DNA of 64,000 nt. Origin: Firmicutes bacterium M10-2. Lineage in GTDB: Bacteria; Bacillota_I; Bacilli_A; Erysipelotrichales; Erysipelotrichaceae. Positions 43,264 to 54,107 of this stretch are shown piece by piece. A program made the translations under genes and the position numbers. The notes under the pieces are model-generated. The model did not search any database and had not been told where the DNA came from. It saw only the letters and a program-made list of their open reading frames with translations. The DNA is taken from positions 275,122-339,121 of the forward strand of contig KE159692.1 in assembly GCA_000403415.2 (NCBI GenBank). Reading direction: 5' to 3'. Numbering within the stretch: the first letter of the stretch is position 1; every line of letters begins with the position of its first letter.

Positions 43264-43845
43264 TTACGAATTGCCCTCGGCAGAGGTTTGAACTACTGTG
43301 TCTTTAAATACATACTGAGCTGCTTCCAGCTGTTCCTGTGTCAAGGTCGCGTAGCCATCTTTAGGCTCGCCAAAAACACCCACCGTTAAAGAATACTCAG
43401 TAAAGTCCTCCGCATTTGCGGTCAGTTCAAACTCCGTAATATAGCCGTTATAGTAGCAGGATTCGTATTTCCCTGCATTCTCTCCCGTACCTTCGATCGC
43501 GGTATTAATTTCCCAGACCTCAACGACCTTGTCTTTCAATAAAGCCGCTTTTACCTTTTTAACGTTTTCGTCGCCTTTAGCGAAAAGAGCGCTCAGTGTG
43601 ATCTCAATCTCTGCGCCTCCTGGAACACGAACTGATCCAGACTTTGTTACAACATTGTCCGCATCCTTGGAAATGCTGGTCGATCCTTCCGTCTGAAATG
43701 CCAGAATCATCGCCGCTTCTTTTGTCAAATCTTCCAGGACACGAACTAAATACATAATTTTCGATCCCTGCACCGGTTCGGCCGCAAAGATCTGCAAGTC
43801 AAAATTCTGAATATTGACCTTGTTGAAATCAATTTTTGTTTTCAT
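43264..43845 (-). CDS. Major tail tube protein with Prp-type leader
   Basis: 193 residues from ATG 43845, which follows GGAGGAAATAAG; the longer open frame starts inside the upstream gene. It is beta-rich like siphovirus tail tube subunits (ITLSALFAKGDENVKKVKAA, FELTANAEDFTEYSLTVGVF). The N-terminus contains NFDLQIFAAEP near residue 15-25, the same leader motif as the scaffold and capsid proteins. The next gene downstream is the chaperone pair. Confidence 0.85.
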   Translation of the reverse strand: MKTKIDFNKVNIQNFDLQIFAAEPVQGSKIMYLVRVLEDLTKEAAMILAFQTEGSTSISKDADNVVTKSGSVRVPGGAEIEITLSALFAKGDENVKKVKAALLKDKVVEVWEINTAIEGTGENAGKYESCYYNGYITEFELTANAEDFTEYSLTVGVFGEPKDGYATLTQEQLEAAQYVFKDTVVQTSAEGNS

Positions 43846-43846
43846 C

Positions 43847-44242
43847 TTATTTCCTCCAATATTTGTACTCACAATTCACCAGCCCATGCATCAGTGGCTC
43901 CGATGTCGTATCATCTGGCAAAATGTCTTCGTTTCCTCCAGACATGCACCAGCCATAAGACGGCGAGGCGTCGATCGATTGTGCGATACGGCGAATTCCA
44001 AAAAGCAAGGAGGAAAAATCGCCCCTCGCTCGAATGTTGTTCGTCCACGCGTGAATTGTAATATTTACCCGGCCGAAAAAGCCGCCTTTCACCTGATAAG
44101 AGGCAGAATCCTGCGTATTGCCAATGTAGATGAAAGGGTACGGCGTGTCCTCGGGAGGCAAATCTCCATCGAACACCATTCCTGGGAACGCCTTTTCAAG
44201 TGCCACACGAAACTGACTGAATAACTCTTGTTGTGGACTCAT
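43847..44242 (-). CDS. Tail completion / minor tail protein
   Basis: 131 residues. DLPPEDTPYPFIYIGNTQDS, then GFFGRVNITIHAWTNNI and LMHGLVNCEYKY resemble gpU-like/DUF3168 tail terminator proteins that cap the tail tube. Position between the HK97 gp10-like gene and the major tail protein supports this. It overlaps the previous gene by 4 bp (ATGA). Confidence 0.75.
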   Translation of the reverse strand: MSPQQELFSQFRVALEKAFPGMVFDGDLPPEDTPYPFIYIGNTQDSASYQVKGGFFGRVNITIHAWTNNIRARGDFSSLLFGIRRIAQSIDASPSYGWCMSGGNEDILPDDTTSEPLMHGLVNCEYKYWRK

Positions 44243-45235: not shown

Positions 45236-46174
45236 CTACTTCGAGGACGGCGTGGCAGTCGTAGTCAATTTGACTTTAGCGACAGCCTTCTTGTTAACTT
45301 CCGGAATATACTCGCCAGACTTACCATGTCCTTGAAGCGCGACGCCATCGAAATCCTGCGCCTCGATCGTACGAGTCGTGTTGATACCGGTAAATGCCTT
45401 AGCAATGCCTTCGATGTAAGCGTAAACAACTTCGTTCTCCCCGAAATAGTCTTCTGCAACTTCCGTGATGATAAAGCCTTTGAATTTGCGGGCTTCATTG
45501 TCATCGATATTCACTGTGGATCCTTTGCTCGACGTTGTCAGTCCGCTGTCCACGATCGCGTTGTATACATCTGGTGTTACTTTAGCGATCCTCTTTCCTT
45601 TGGCTTTGACGTTCGTGAAGTATTTGGACAGTTCACTGAACAATGCGGCGACCGTATCTTTCGTGATGCTGCTCACTTCGATCGTTTTCGAAGCGCTCTT
45701 CGAAATGAATGCCGCATGCTTACCGTTTAGTTCCTCAGTCACAGCCTGTGCCTGCAGATCGAGGCGATCGGCGATAGCTTGCTCAAAATCGGCATTGACC
45801 GTAGACCGGTCTACACCTTCGTGGAAAGCCCACTCTGCTGTATACGGAACATCGGTATCTTTATAGATGACTTCCGTGCGGTTTCCAAAACGAGATGTGC
45901 TTTCAGTGCCAGTACCAAACGCGACATTTTCGCCTTTGTTGTAGGTACCGATCGTGACCGGGATATCAGACGTCTTAACACTGAATGCCGTCGCGGAATC
46001 CCGCACGCCGTCCACCACATCGATCTTCCCTCCGACGAAAAAGTCATTGAATTGAGCTTGCACACCAAACACGGCTAACATGAGTTCTTTAAACTCCTTG
46101 CTGAACACCCGGATGTTCGAATTCTGCGGTTCATCCGCAAACATCTGAAGATTGATCTTTTTCATTCGCTTCAT
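45236..46174 (-). CDS. Major capsid protein with Prp-type leader
   Basis: 312 residues; HK97-fold-like coat protein judged from content (GENVAFGTGTESTSRFGNRT, HEGVDRSTVNADFEQAIADR) and position after the scaffold. The N-terminus is MKRMKKINLQMFADEPQ. INLQMFA matches the leader cleaved in Bacillota proteins by Prp, with cleavage expected after Ala13. The start follows AGAGGTAAAAAGT. Removal of the leader would leave a mature N-terminus DEPQNS. Confidence 0.9.
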   Translation of the reverse strand: MKRMKKINLQMFADEPQNSNIRVFSKEFKELMLAVFGVQAQFNDFFVGGKIDVVDGVRDSATAFSVKTSDIPVTIGTYNKGENVAFGTGTESTSRFGNRTEVIYKDTDVPYTAEWAFHEGVDRSTVNADFEQAIADRLDLQAQAVTEELNGKHAAFISKSASKTIEVSSITKDTVAALFSELSKYFTNVKAKGKRIAKVTPDVYNAIVDSGLTTSSKGSTVNIDDNEARKFKGFIITEVAEDYFGENEVVYAYIEGIAKAFTGINTTRTIEAQDFDGVALQGHGKSGEYIPEVNKKAVAKVKLTTTATPSSK

Positions 46175-46190: not shown

Positions 46191-46781
46191 CTATCGTTTA
46201 TACTTATTCAGTTTTGCTTCGAAAGGGCTTGGCTTTTCATGGTCGGTCCGGTATATTTTCGGAGTTCGTCCCAGTGCCCTTTCAGCTTCGACTGCTTTAC
46301 GATCTGCCTTGATGACCGACACGAGCTTCTCGATCCGCACGTTCGTATCTTCGGCAGTTTCTCCGACTACGAAGTCCAGGATATCCTGGGTAGCCGTGAT
46401 CTTGTGATTCTCTTGAAGAATCGTGGCAGCGCTCTTGGAAAGTTCAGTACGTTGGGCTTGCTTTTCCAGCTGCGCGATCTGGTTTTTCAAGTTCTCGTTT
46501 TCCATCTGGATCTTTTCCTGTTCATACGCCTTTTTTTGTTCTTCGTTCATCTTTGCGAGCTTTTGCGCTTCTGTCCGAGCTTCCTCGATCTTTTTTTGGT
46601 TCTCTTTTTCAGCACGTTTCAGCCGGTCCTTCACGATCTTGTCCAGCTCAGCTTGAGTGAACGTCTTCTCGCCTTTTTCTTCTTCCGAAGATTTTGGCGC
46701 GTTTTCCGGCTCGTCTGGTGTCAGATCCGGTGCCGATTCTTCCGCAAAAAGCTGCAAGTTGAATGGTTTCACAATAAACAT
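46191..46781 (-). CDS. Capsid scaffold protein with Prp-type leader
   Basis: 196 residues, dominated by a Glu/Lys/Gln-rich coiled coil (KIEEARTEAQKLAKMNEEQK) typical of scaffolds that guide capsid assembly and then leave. The N-terminus MFIVKPFNLQLFAEES contains NLQLFA, the Prp cleavage motif. The start at 46781 follows GGGAGGTAAGAAAA; the longer open frame lacks a site. It lies between the Prp-like protease gene and the capsid gene. Confidence 0.9.
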   Translation of the reverse strand: MFIVKPFNLQLFAEESAPDLTPDEPENAPKSSEEEKGEKTFTQAELDKIVKDRLKRAEKENQKKIEEARTEAQKLAKMNEEQKKAYEQEKIQMENENLKNQIAQLEKQAQRTELSKSAATILQENHKITATQDILDFVVGETAEDTNVRIEKLVSVIKADRKAVEAERALGRTPKIYRTDHEKPSPFEAKLNKYKR

Positions 46782-46884: not shown

Positions 46885-47199
46885 CTATCCCTTTTTCATG
46901 TATGCGCATTGAACATGATCAGGGTACGCGCTGGCGATACTCATACAGCCGAGTCGAAAACTTTCGACCAGCAGGATCGCATCATCCTCCGCGTGATTGC
47001 CATAAATTTGATGCCAGCCCTCCGTCTGATCATGGTAGATACAGGCACCCGTCAACTCTTCGATCGACTGGATCAGATTTTCAAATAGCGCTGAGATTGC
47101 GCTGCACACGATGTCTTTTCCAGGTTCTGCGTATTGAGCATGCCCCGTGATCGTGATCACGAACTCTTTTCTTCGCCGCTCTACTTTGATGTCGATCAT
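46885..47199 (-). CDS. Prp-like cysteine protease (phage-encoded)
   Basis: 104 residues. The Prp/YsxB family signature is clear: GHAQYAEPGKDIVCSAISAL, with catalytic His20 and Cys32. In Bacillota host Prp removes the N-terminal leader (LNLQFFA type) of ribosomal protein L27 and of some phage capsid and scaffold proteins. Here the phage carries its own copy directly upstream of scaffold and capsid, whose leaders bear NLQLFA and NLQMFA. It is thus a probable head-maturation protease. Start follows AGGAGAACAAGCT. Confidence 0.88.
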   Translation of the reverse strand: MIDIKVERRRKEFVITITGHAQYAEPGKDIVCSAISALFENLIQSIEELTGACIYHDQTEGWHQIYGNHAEDDAILLVESFRLGCMSIASAYPDHVQCAYMKKG

Positions 47200-47381
47200 A
47201 GCTTGTTCTCCTGGAACAGCTCTAGCAGTGCCTTCTGAAACGCTAATGAAAATACGATAACAAAAGGCAGATACAGCGGCGAAAACACGATCAGCCAGGA
47301 TAGATCAAAGCTAAAAAAGGCTTTCAATGAAAACAAGATAATAAATAGAATCGTAAAAAGGCTGGGTAAATATTTTGTCAT
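47196..47381 (-). CDS. Small two-span membrane protein
   Basis: 61 residues, mostly hydrophobic with two membrane helices (LFTILFIILFSLKAFFSF and WLIVFSPLYLPFVIVFSLAF). Start follows AGAGGAAATAACGA. It overlaps the protease start by 4 bp, so the two are coupled. Unknown function. Confidence 0.6.
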   Translation of the reverse strand: MTKYLPSLFTILFIILFSLKAFFSFDLSWLIVFSPLYLPFVIVFSLAFQKALLELFQENKL

Positions 47382-48050: not shown

Positions 48051-50339
48051 TTATTTGATGCGGTGGGTAGTTATCAGTCTGATTTTATCTTCACCTACAT
48101 CTTGACTCCAAACAACTTGAAATTTTTTCTTTTTTTCTACACCTAACATCATGTTAACAGAAAACCGTTTACCATATTCTGTTTTTTTTCTATCATACGA
48201 AGATTTGACAACCTGTTCAAGAATATCGTTCTCCAATTGCCGCCAATTTTCCTGCGAATACCCTACATCAAAAAATTCTTTAGCGTGTTTTGCCCCTTCT
48301 TTTAGCATATATTTTTTAATCTTATCAGGGTGAATGTAGTGATCCTTGGAAAGCCTATTGTGATCGTATTCATCTAGCTTTTTCCAATCCTTCCAGCTCA
48401 GTCCGTGCTTGTCATATGTTTCCGACCACCCATCGAACAGCTTCACTTCTTCATCGCTGACTCCGAAGTCGGTACGCTCCATATAGGCGCTTGTGCTGCA
48501 CCGACAGTTGCTAGTAATAACTCCATTGGCAATGTATAATGTCGATAGAGAGGAGGCGTCATAAACATGCCCTTTATAAAATCTAACATCAACGCTGACG
48601 ATGTCATCAAAATGTATAAATCCGGTAAAACCACTAAGGAAATTGCTAATTTCTTCGGAGTTGGTGCCCGCAAAATAACCGAAATCGCTAGTTCTGTCGG
48701 ATATACTCCCACACCTATTCAAAATAGTGTTGATATTGGACTCGTCGTTTCGCTTTATAAATCTGGCGTTAGTCAAAACGCAATCGCCAAACAGCTTGGA
48801 GTTAGCCGATCCGTTATTAGGAACCGTCTTTGCAAGGCGGGCGTAATAATCAGAGGGCCTGCGGAAGCCAACCAACTCATGATGAGTAAGCGCACGCCCG
48901 AAGAGAACGCTAGAAACTCTCGAGCTGCTCATGATGCCGTCCGCAACAAGCCCAAGACCCACCAACAACTCTGCAATCATGCACTTGGCGTTCAAAACGC
49001 TTTCACTTCCTTCAAGAGTCCTTATGAACAAGATATCGCCGATGAGCTTATTAATCGCGGAATTAAATTTGTTCCTCAACTCGCTGTTGATAAATACAAT
49101 ATCGACTTTGCTATCGGGAATAACATCGCCCTTGAGGTCTTCGGCGGAAATTGGCACGCTAAAGGTAGGCACCGAGCTAGATTTGCTGAGCGCAGCAAAA
49201 AGCTTTTCGATAGTGGGTACGCCATTGTTATTTGTTGGATTGGTTTCAACCATAGATTTAACCCGTCCGCAATAGTTGACTACCTTATCTCCCTTGATAA
49301 GGTTCTTTGCTCTGACCCATCCGCGCGCCGTAAGCACTATGTGATTGGGGGTCACGGAAAGCCTTGTTCCATTGGAAAGTCCAAGCTCAACTACATTTCC
49401 TGAATATTCACTTCTCATAATCGCTTCTATGTCAGGAGCGATTATTTTTGTATCAGGAAGCACACAATTTGGATGCATAGGCGGGGCATTCACGCCTGGC
49501 TGCATATCCTCCATGCCAAAATGTTTCCCGTTGATCGCTAAACAATGCGGGCAAGCCGTCCCTAGGGAATGGAACGTATATTGATCGAATCCGTTTTCTT
49601 CAAATGACCTATGCTGCGCTTCCGTTTGAACCCGTGCCATTTCTGTGATCATCAAACGGTTCGCGTTATACTCGCTCGATTTCACCTTTTTCCGAAGCGT
49701 ACGCGCCAATTCTTTCGGATTCCGACCTTGGATAAGGCCTGTCGATAAAAGGCTTCCCAGCTCGTTTCTGAGCGTGTCCTGATGCTTCCAGATCCGGTCG
49801 CTCCAAGTCGCGTTGTGAAAGCTGGCGTTCACGATCGAATGTGCGTACCGGGCGTTGTCATGGACCGTACGACCCAATATACCGGCTTGCCGTTTGAACG
49901 TCTCGATCGTGCGCTTTGTCAACTTCTCTTCAAAGAACCGCTGCAGCTCGTCGAAGCCGCCAACCAGATGCATCCCGATGTTCGCTTTCAACAGCTCCAA
50001 CCGATTCACCTTCATTGTGAGGTTGTACAGGCGCATTTCCTCGTTTGCCTGGTCAGAAAAGTTTTTCTCGGCCACATACTTTTTAGCAAGCTCGGCATAC
50101 GTTTGTATATCCAGTTTAGAGACCCTTTTTTTCGCTTCTGCATAGGTGATCCCCTCTTTTGTGGCATATCGAGTGTAGAAATTATTGATCTGGATCTCGA
50201 TTTCATTCATCATCTGTCGGTAGATGCGTTCGATTTCTTGGCTATATGCCTTCTCTTCTTGGATATTGTGCTTCCGCTGCTCTTCTTCCCGCTCGCGCCA
50301 ATAGTCGGCGCTATTTTTCGATTCCGGCTTCGCCATCAT
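48051..50339 (-). CDS. Minor head protein (MuF/SPP1 gp7-like) interrupted by an intein
   Basis: 762 codons, of which 320 are an intein (residues 292-611). The spliced product would be 442 residues: helical N-terminus, MuF core (VQTEAQHRSFEENGFDQYTF, LGTACPHCLAINGKHF) and the conserved end PPMHPN-CRCSTSAY, exactly where the intein sits. MuF proteins enter the capsid with the portal and help ejection. The start overlaps the portal stop. The intein lies at the family's most conserved motif, as inteins tend to do. Confidence 0.92.
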   Translation of the reverse strand: MMAKPESKNSADYWREREEEQRKHNIQEEKAYSQEIERIYRQMMNEIEIQINNFYTRYATKEGITYAEAKKRVSKLDIQTYAELAKKYVAEKNFSDQANEEMRLYNLTMKVNRLELLKANIGMHLVGGFDELQRFFEEKLTKRTIETFKRQAGILGRTVHDNARYAHSIVNASFHNATWSDRIWKHQDTLRNELGSLLSTGLIQGRNPKELARTLRKKVKSSEYNANRLMITEMARVQTEAQHRSFEENGFDQYTFHSLGTACPHCLAINGKHFGMEDMQPGVNAPPMHPNCVLPDTKIIAPDIEAIMRSEYSGNVVELGLSNGTRLSVTPNHIVLTARGWVRAKNLIKGDKVVNYCGRVKSMVETNPTNNNGVPTIEKLFAALSKSSSVPTFSVPISAEDLKGDVIPDSKVDIVFINSELRNKFNSAINKLIGDILFIRTLEGSESVLNAKCMIAELLVGLGLVADGIMSSSRVSSVLFGRALTHHELVGFRRPSDYYARLAKTVPNNGSANSKLFGDCVLTNARFIKRNDESNINTILNRCGSISDRTSDFGYFAGTNSEEISNFLSGFTGFIHFDDIVSVDVRFYKGHVYDASSLSTLYIANGVITSNCRCSTSAYMERTDFGVSDEEVKLFDGWSETYDKHGLSWKDWKKLDEYDHNRLSKDHYIHPDKIKKYMLKEGAKHAKEFFDVGYSQENWRQLENDILEQVVKSSYDRKKTEYGKRFSVNMMLGVEKKKKFQVVWSQDVGEDKIRLITTHRIK
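48507..49466 (-). other. Intein in the MuF gene
   Basis: Starts at Cys292 (CVLPDTKIIAPD, block A) after extein Asn291. Block B is SVTPNHIVLTARGWVRAKN with the TxxH motif. Block F is VYDASSLSTLYIANG. It ends at Asn611 (VITSN, block G), with extein Cys612. The penultimate residue is Ser instead of the usual His. About 220 residues between blocks B and F show no LAGLIDADG endonuclease in the sense frame; this stretch is the mirror of the antisense gene at 48567-49403. Confidence 0.9.
48567..49403 (+). CDS. Antisense homing endonuclease nested in the intein (Vsr/EDxHD-like)
   Basis: 278 residues on the strand opposite to the intein, wholly inside it. Two helix-turn-helix units (12-40, TTKEIANFFGVGARKITEIA; 57-90, SQNAIAKQLGVSRSVIRNRL) are followed by a Vsr/DUF559-like nuclease core: Glu154 in SPYEQDIADEL, Asp180 in KYNIDFAI, Glu190 and His197 in ALEVFGGNWHA, and KKLFDSGYAIVICW. 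The ATG follows AGGAGG (48551-48556) and a TATAAT box lies at 48535-48540, all within intein codons. This would be the homing function missing from the sense frame. Confidence 0.88.
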   Translation: MPFIKSNINADDVIKMYKSGKTTKEIANFFGVGARKITEIASSVGYTPTPIQNSVDIGLVVSLYKSGVSQNAIAKQLGVSRSVIRNRLCKAGVIIRGPAEANQLMMSKRTPEENARNSRAAHDAVRNKPKTHQQLCNHALGVQNAFTSFKSPYEQDIADELINRGIKFVPQLAVDKYNIDFAIGNNIALEVFGGNWHAKGRHRARFAERSKKLFDSGYAIVICWIGFNHRFNPSAIVDYLISLDKVLCSDPSARRKHYVIGGHGKPCSIGKSKLNYIS

Positions 50340-53483: not shown

Positions 53484-53819
53484 TCAAATCAGAAAAAGTT
53501 GAATAATATTTTTTACGCTCTCGAGGATGTTTGGTGGACACTCCTCTATTTTTTTTGCGTTTCTGGCATCCAAGTCCATTGCCCGGACGTGTTCGCAAAA
53601 AATTTTCCCTTTCACATCCTTTGTTCCTTCTAGAGCAATGTGCAAAGGGAAATCTTTGTTGTTTGTAGAAATAGGACAAACCAAGTACATCCCTGTTTTT
53701 TGGTGGTATGTGTCATTTGACACAATTACTCCGGGGCGATGCCCTCGTTGTTCGTGCCCTTTAGTTGGACTAAATTCTAAAAATATAATATCTCCTTCCG
53801 TAAAATTCGTTTTATTCAT
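53484..53819 (-). CDS. MazF/PemK-family toxin (endoribonuclease)
   Basis: 111 residues. FTEGDIIFLEFSPTKGHEQRG, HRPGVIVSND, YLVCPISTNNKDFPLHIAL and GKIFCEHVRAMDL show the SH3-like barrel of MazF mRNA interferases, with the conserved Arg-x-x-Val region and Thr/Ser in CPIS. It follows its antitoxin gene by 15 bp. It lies between the packaging genes and the regulator region, on the same strand. Confidence 0.92.
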   Translation of the reverse strand: MNKTNFTEGDIIFLEFSPTKGHEQRGHRPGVIVSNDTYHQKTGMYLVCPISTNNKDFPLHIALEGTKDVKGKIFCEHVRAMDLDARNAKKIEECPPNILESVKNIIQLFLI

Positions 53820-53834
53820 AAATCTCCTTTCTCT

Positions 53835-54107
53835 TTATATGGATTCTTTTCCTTCATAATCCATACCTTCCCAAGCCTCCATCTCATCTCCGAATAGTTC
53901 TTGATAAGATGGGCCTGAATAACTAGCAAACAAATCTTTTAAAGTTTTGATCTTTTTTGGTTTAGCAGGTGTTAATACGATTTTATCGCCCTCCACCTCT
54001 AACAGCAGTTCATCGCCGATATCAATCGACAGTAAATTCAATATAGCTTGTGGCAACCTAACGCCTCTACCGTTGCCCCATTTTGCTACGGTAAGTCCTT
54101 TCGTCAT
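53835..54107 (-). CDS. MazE/AbrB-type antitoxin
   Basis: 90 residues. The N-terminal AbrB/MazE swapped hairpin is evident: AKWGNGRGVRLPQAILNLLS, IGDELLLEVEGDKIVLTPAK. The C-terminal 40 residues are acidic and flexible (ELFGDEMEAWEGMDYEGKE), as needed to cover the toxin. The start follows GAAGGAGGATTTATAA. An inverted repeat flanks the promoter. Confidence 0.9.
   Translation of the reverse strand: MTKGLTVAKWGNGRGVRLPQAILNLLSIDIGDELLLEVEGDKIVLTPAKPKKIKTLKDLFASYSGPSYQELFGDEMEAWEGMDYEGKESI

Follow-up and report, generated by a model that had tools for sequence, protein, structure and literature searches.

The analysed stretch of 64,000 nucleotides (the window) contains a prophage head operon, in which prp comes after the genes for terminase, portal, MuF and some small proteins and before those for scaffold, capsid, the connectors and the tail tube (Table 1). 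The 104-residue product of prp matched the Pfam family PF04327 (Peptidase_Prp, MEROPS C108) over the full profile (positions 1–90 of 90; 1.8e-20, 73.4 bits against a cut-off of 27) and PHROG 4478, annotated as 'peptidase' (8e-22). In the alignment to SaPrp (4peo/7kld), residues H20, C32, D29, G19 and G27 corresponded to SaPrp H22, C34, D31, G21 and G29, and Glu40 occupied the position of SaPrp Phe42. The AlphaFold2 model (pLDDT 85.8, pTM 0.80) had the Prp fold, with TM-scores of 0.84 to SaPrp 7jvs and 0.83 to 7kld; its structure matches included SaPrp with substrate at a TM-score of 0.84. Residues 24–27 were the weakest stretch of the model; the loop to which they belong lacks order in unbound SaPrp as well (PMC9405229). 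A sequence-only reading of this DNA had placed a Prp homologue with His20 and Cys32 in the head module without naming its strand, and the intact minus-strand reading frame with its Pfam and PHROG matches bears this out. The prp frame starts at an ATG that overlaps the stop codon of the gene upstream, and the two genes are probably coupled in translation. Among close relatives, dN of prp was lower than dS, as counted from few changes.

Table 1. Features of the phage region in the window. A slash marks the predicted cleavage site of a leader.
Feature	Position	Strand	Evidence and remarks
Major tail tube protein	43264..43848	-	Pfam PF06199 (4e-18), PHROG 238; N-terminal leader MKTKIDFNKVNIQNFDLQIF/AAEP, type DLQIFA
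Major capsid protein	45236..46174	-	PHROG 840 major head protein (1e-112); N-terminal leader MKRMKKINLQMF/ADEP, type NLQMFA; start 46174
Head scaffolding protein (DUF4355/Gp46-like)	46191..46781	-	Pfam PF14265 (7e-16), PHROG 172; N-terminal leader MFIVKPFNLQLF/AEES, type NLQLFA; start about 46781
prp, Prp-family cysteine protease	46885..47199	-	104 aa; Pfam and PHROG matches, SaPrp alignment, AlphaFold2 model
Small membrane-like protein	47196..47381	-	Directly upstream of prp, 4-base overlap; PHROG 1374 (unknown function)
MuF minor head gene	48051..50339	-	Contains intein (Pfam Intein_splicing)
Antisense open frame in the intein	48567..49403	+	HTH domains and MTES_1575/Vsr-like endonuclease
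Two adjacent small genes	53484..54107	-	111 and 90 aa; MazF-MazE-type toxin-antitoxin look (by eye)

The scaffold, capsid and tail tube proteins each begin with a Prp-type leader at an ATG start that is preceded by a purine-rich, Shine-Dalgarno-like stretch, so that the NLQxFA-type motifs claimed by the sequence-only reading were all recovered. The start of the tail tube protein was read as the ATG at about 43848, not the GTG at 43872. Among 393 open frames in the window, the pattern [ND][LI]Q.FA matched four times, the expectation from shuffled proteins being 0.12; three of these are the leaders, and the fourth is internal to an 81-aa frame. For the pattern NLQ...FA in the window DNA, two matches were found against 0.06 expected. 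The scaffold leader is identical in a near relative (L005), in which the residues directly past the Phe-Ala bond differ, with gaps.

Two further features of the region were recorded. The pair of small genes with a toxin-antitoxin look lies directly upstream of the terminase genes. The intein of the MuF gene carries in its middle, on the opposite strand, an open frame that has the appearance of a homing endonuclease gene in antisense orientation. Searches with tblastn found relatives of this endonuclease in 127 phage records, 89 of them over at least 80% of its length. Both relatives that were checked, in Gordonia phage Vivi2 and in Escherichia phage Snoke (where the intein is annotated), lie antisense inside MuF-type genes and have no gene annotation of their own; a literature search found no paper on an antisense intein endonuclease. 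The MuF frame of L005, from about 6406, has an insert at the same position and a long frame (804 aa) that continues differently, which suggests a different intein insert.

The host genome has its own prp (G000:C16), which adjoins rpmA and follows rplU (the latter named by eye), and its L27 protein begins with MRFTLDIQFF/ASKK, a leader of the type DIQFFA. A location between rplU and rpmA, which marks the host enzyme, is thus that of this copy, whereas the window prp sits in the head operon. Prp was present in 189 of 196 genomes of the host's order; phage copies are rare there, because only six genomes had a second Prp match, and a class-wide search found phage Prps to be rare in the window's own class. 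We also considered a recent copy of the host gene as the origin of the phage prp. This was unsupported: in the tree, the window Prp grouped weakly with the Prp of a metagenomic phage rather than with that of its host.

Compared with host Prp as known from SaPrp (MEROPS C108), which acts on L27 and on the capsid and scaffold of phage 80alpha, the window system shares the fold, the His, Cys and Asp residues, the xLQxF/A leader form, and capsid and scaffold as predicted substrates. It differs in a phage-borne prp within the head operon, an added leader on the tail tube, the P2 residue (the residue before the Phe-Ala pair of the leader) and the Phe42 position. The window phage resembles 80alpha-type phages in its leader-bearing capsid and scaffold, but whereas those lack a protease of their own and are processed by host Prp, it carries prp.

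We scanned viral contigs and phage records, together with genomes that contain phage Prps, and obtained 98 Prp loci without L27; merging of loci at 85% identity and addition of those found via capsids and genomes gave 104 distinct phage Prps. Catalytic residues were conserved in nearly all of them, although the main search pattern itself required the G, D and C, a bias that is absent only from loci found in other ways. One phage Prp (L470; genome G590, C60:23714-23995) has Gly in place of the catalytic Cys (KDIVGAGV) and stands beside a protein with a TLQLFA leader; it may have been inactivated or may serve a role other than catalysis. The earlier treatment of the arrangement as a peculiarity of the window phage did not hold, since at least one leader was found within 8 kb downstream at 88 of the 104 loci; at least two were found at 63 and three at 32. 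The 16 loci with no leader include some short contigs. Leader proteins clustered into scaffolds (main cluster, 51 genomes), several capsid families unlinked by BLAST, and two tail-tube families, and leaders on scaffold, capsid and tail protein together occur in Oenococcus phages, Lactobacillus prophage Lj965 and metagenomic phages.

A second comparison started from capsid and tail-tube alignments, with no direct selection for prp, and clusters at 90% identity were sorted by the presence of an upstream Prp gene. Capsid leaders were present in 48 of 64 prp-bearing and 8 of 43 prp-less clusters (p=1e-8), and tail-tube leaders of the window's family in 38 of 53 and 0 of 10, respectively (p=3e-5), relatedness being ignored in both tests. 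Co-occurrence across many phages thus gives good support to prp and the three leaders as one putative system, and the tail-tube result supports the further guess that the tail protein is a predicted substrate as well. The link between tail-tube leader and prp is not a universal law, because the major tail protein of Staphylococcus phage phi13, mentioned with regard to host Prp, is reported to have a Prp motif, as the window tail tube does (PMC5744158). The pairing also bears on the idea that phage Prp mainly targets host L27 or another host protein and remodels ribosomes during infection, with the structural leaders as a side effect. Members of the Prp family do process L27, and the L27 of the window's host bears a leader, but this idea leaves unexplained why the phage gene lies in the head operon and is accompanied by leaders on structural proteins with a P2 residue other than that of L27, and we regard it as very improbable.

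The window phage belongs to a group of phages for which a peptidase is already annotated. Like it, the PHROG 4478 phages (Oenococcus phages, Lj965) have a phage Prp near portal and scaffold genes and leaders on scaffold, capsid and major tail protein; they differ in their [ND]LQRFA leaders and in a prp that overlaps the end of the portal gene. The Krappator X27 paper names a putative maturation head protease (PMC12403621); the words 'peptidase' and 'Prp' are absent from it. The capsid-processing cysteine protease of Cp-1 belongs to the same clan (CR) and trims the capsid N terminus, but it is set apart by its description as a member of a different family that removes about 40 residues (PMC9405229). 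Literature searches for a phage-encoded Prp with leaders gave only the 80alpha work and a review. What seems to be new, as far as the open-access literature shows, is the rule that the presence of leaders and the residue at their P2 vary with whether the phage has a protease of its own.

The P2 residue of capsid leaders was Phe or Tyr in none of 48 prp-bearing and in all 8 prp-less clusters (p=7e-10, relatedness ignored); with His counted as a ring residue, the numbers were 2 of 48 and 8 of 8. Host taxon is the main confounder of this contrast, and we therefore compared prophages with a DUF4355 scaffold from one order and read the L27 leader of each genome; since phage Prps are rare in the window's class, these paired data came from the order of Diplocloster (G541). 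In hosts with Phe or Tyr at P2 of L27, the prp-less prophages had DVQFFA, NLQFFS, NLQYFA, NLQFFA and DLQHFA leaders (Phe, Tyr or His in 5 of 5, two near copies counted once), whereas the prp-bearing prophages had Leu, Met or Ile in 8 of 9 (near copies merged, window included). The exception (G574) combines NLQFFA and SLQFFA leaders with a divergent Prp that has Gly at position 40. Fisher's test gave p=0.003 when His was included among the ring residues and 0.023 when only Phe and Tyr were counted. One genome with an NLQYFA leader on L27 (G545) holds both kinds side by side among four prophages. Another (G658) has Val at P2 of its L27 and a prp-less phage with Ile. Phe at P2 despite prp was seen in both leaders of L530 and in single leaders of L089, L209 and L296, and seven genomes had Arg at P2 in every leader found. 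Non-homologous proteins of one genome agreed in P2 in 65% of comparisons against 39% in shuffles, a difference inflated by shared descent.

At the host side, Leu at P2 of L27 is common, and Arg or Lys occurs in some Bacilli. A supposed absence of Arg at P2 from host L27 was rejected, as NIQRFA and DIQRFA leaders occur in some small-genome relatives. In the small-genome relatives L429, L434, L440 and L436, host L27 leaders are NIQRFA, DIQRFA and NIQKFA, and the Prps have Tyr or Ile at the SaPrp Phe42 position.

In the SaPrp structure 7KLD, Phe42 forms an edge-to-face network with the P1-P2 Phe-Phe of the substrate (PMC9405229). This position was hydrophobic in 152 of 161 host Prps, a usual rather than strictly defining trait that the window Prp with its Glu40 lacks, and in the 104 phage Prps it was Gln, Asn, His or Ser in 70 and Asp or Glu in 8. 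Phages with Arg leaders had Asp or Glu there in 5 of 8 cases and the others in 3 of 80 (p=7e-5, unadjusted). A strict pairing of Asp or Glu at position 40 with Arg leaders was rejected: the window phage combines Glu with Leu, Met and Ile, which does not fit simple charge pairing with P2, and phylogeny-independent pairs were too few. Phage Prps fall into few deep groups of the poorly resolved tree, whose group labels wrongly count three phage rows (P2=His) as host, and the shift to Gln or an acidic residue may therefore represent few events.

The P2 pattern is partly confounded by host taxon and phylogeny. It might track host taxon and phage descent only, with specificity unchanged and prp-bearing phages residing in hosts with a tolerant Prp, an account that competes with altered specificity and leaves the pairing of Prp and leaders untouched. 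The origin of most prp-bearing phages from Clostridia, the frequency of Leu at P2 of host L27 and the few deep phage groups in the Prp tree speak for it. We nevertheless consider it unlikely in view of the paired data from hosts with Phe or Tyr in L27, including the four prophages of one genome, and of the observation that P2 differs with prp status inside single families of capsids and of scaffolds (L608 and L611, two scaffolds, share 55% identity). A different account holds that host Prp cuts the leaders, as in 80alpha, the phage prp being a redundant extra dose or a relic. The host prp adjoining rpmA and the leader on L27 fit this, as does the reliance of 80alpha on host Prp, an enzyme that cleaves leaders having either Phe or His at P2 (PMC9405229, PMC5744158). 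However, the phage prp is intact and has dN below dS, the leaders co-occur with it and depart from host L27 at P2, and the residue in contact with P1-P2 is a different one in the phage enzymes, which together make this account decidedly improbable.

We consider it likely that the window encodes a phage-owned Prp-leader system that serves head and tail proteins with altered specificity. Expressed from the head operon immediately ahead of scaffold and capsid, the phage Prp would most likely cut the Phe-Ala bond of the scaffold, capsid and tail tube leaders during assembly and remove about 12–20 residues. Compared with host Prp, its substrate site appears altered where it contacts P1-P2, and the leaders have Leu, Met or Ile (Arg in other lineages) at P2 in place of the aromatic residue of the host L27 leader. 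The leader may delay or guide assembly and be shed afterwards. In 80alpha, cleavage of the capsid protein is dispensable and the scaffold leader is essential but its cutting is not (PMC5744158), and the leader may therefore serve folding rather than cleavage. With an enzyme of its own, the phage would escape both competition with nascent L27 and the specificity of the host; as to independence from host Prp, which we only infer, the host has its own prp, and its enzyme might still cut the leaders. With slightly less than even confidence we extend this reading to private Prp-leader systems in many tailed Bacillota phages, in which the P1-P2 contact (the Phe42 position, to Gln or Asp/Glu) and P2 of head and tail leaders (to Leu/Met/Ile or Arg) changed together, uncoupling virion processing from, and perhaps making it orthogonal to, the essential processing of L27 in the host.

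The Prp of the host is essential and has been proposed as a target for antibiotics, and 80alpha-type phages borrow it. A phage-owned Prp with a different leader code would show viruses freeing their assembly from a host enzyme, and naturally diverged protease-substrate pairs would let P2 specificity be read and tested. Prp-type leaders would extend to tail tubes as a rule, and the purpose of leaders on phage structural proteins could be tested in a host that carries phages both with and without prp, as G545 does among its four prophages.
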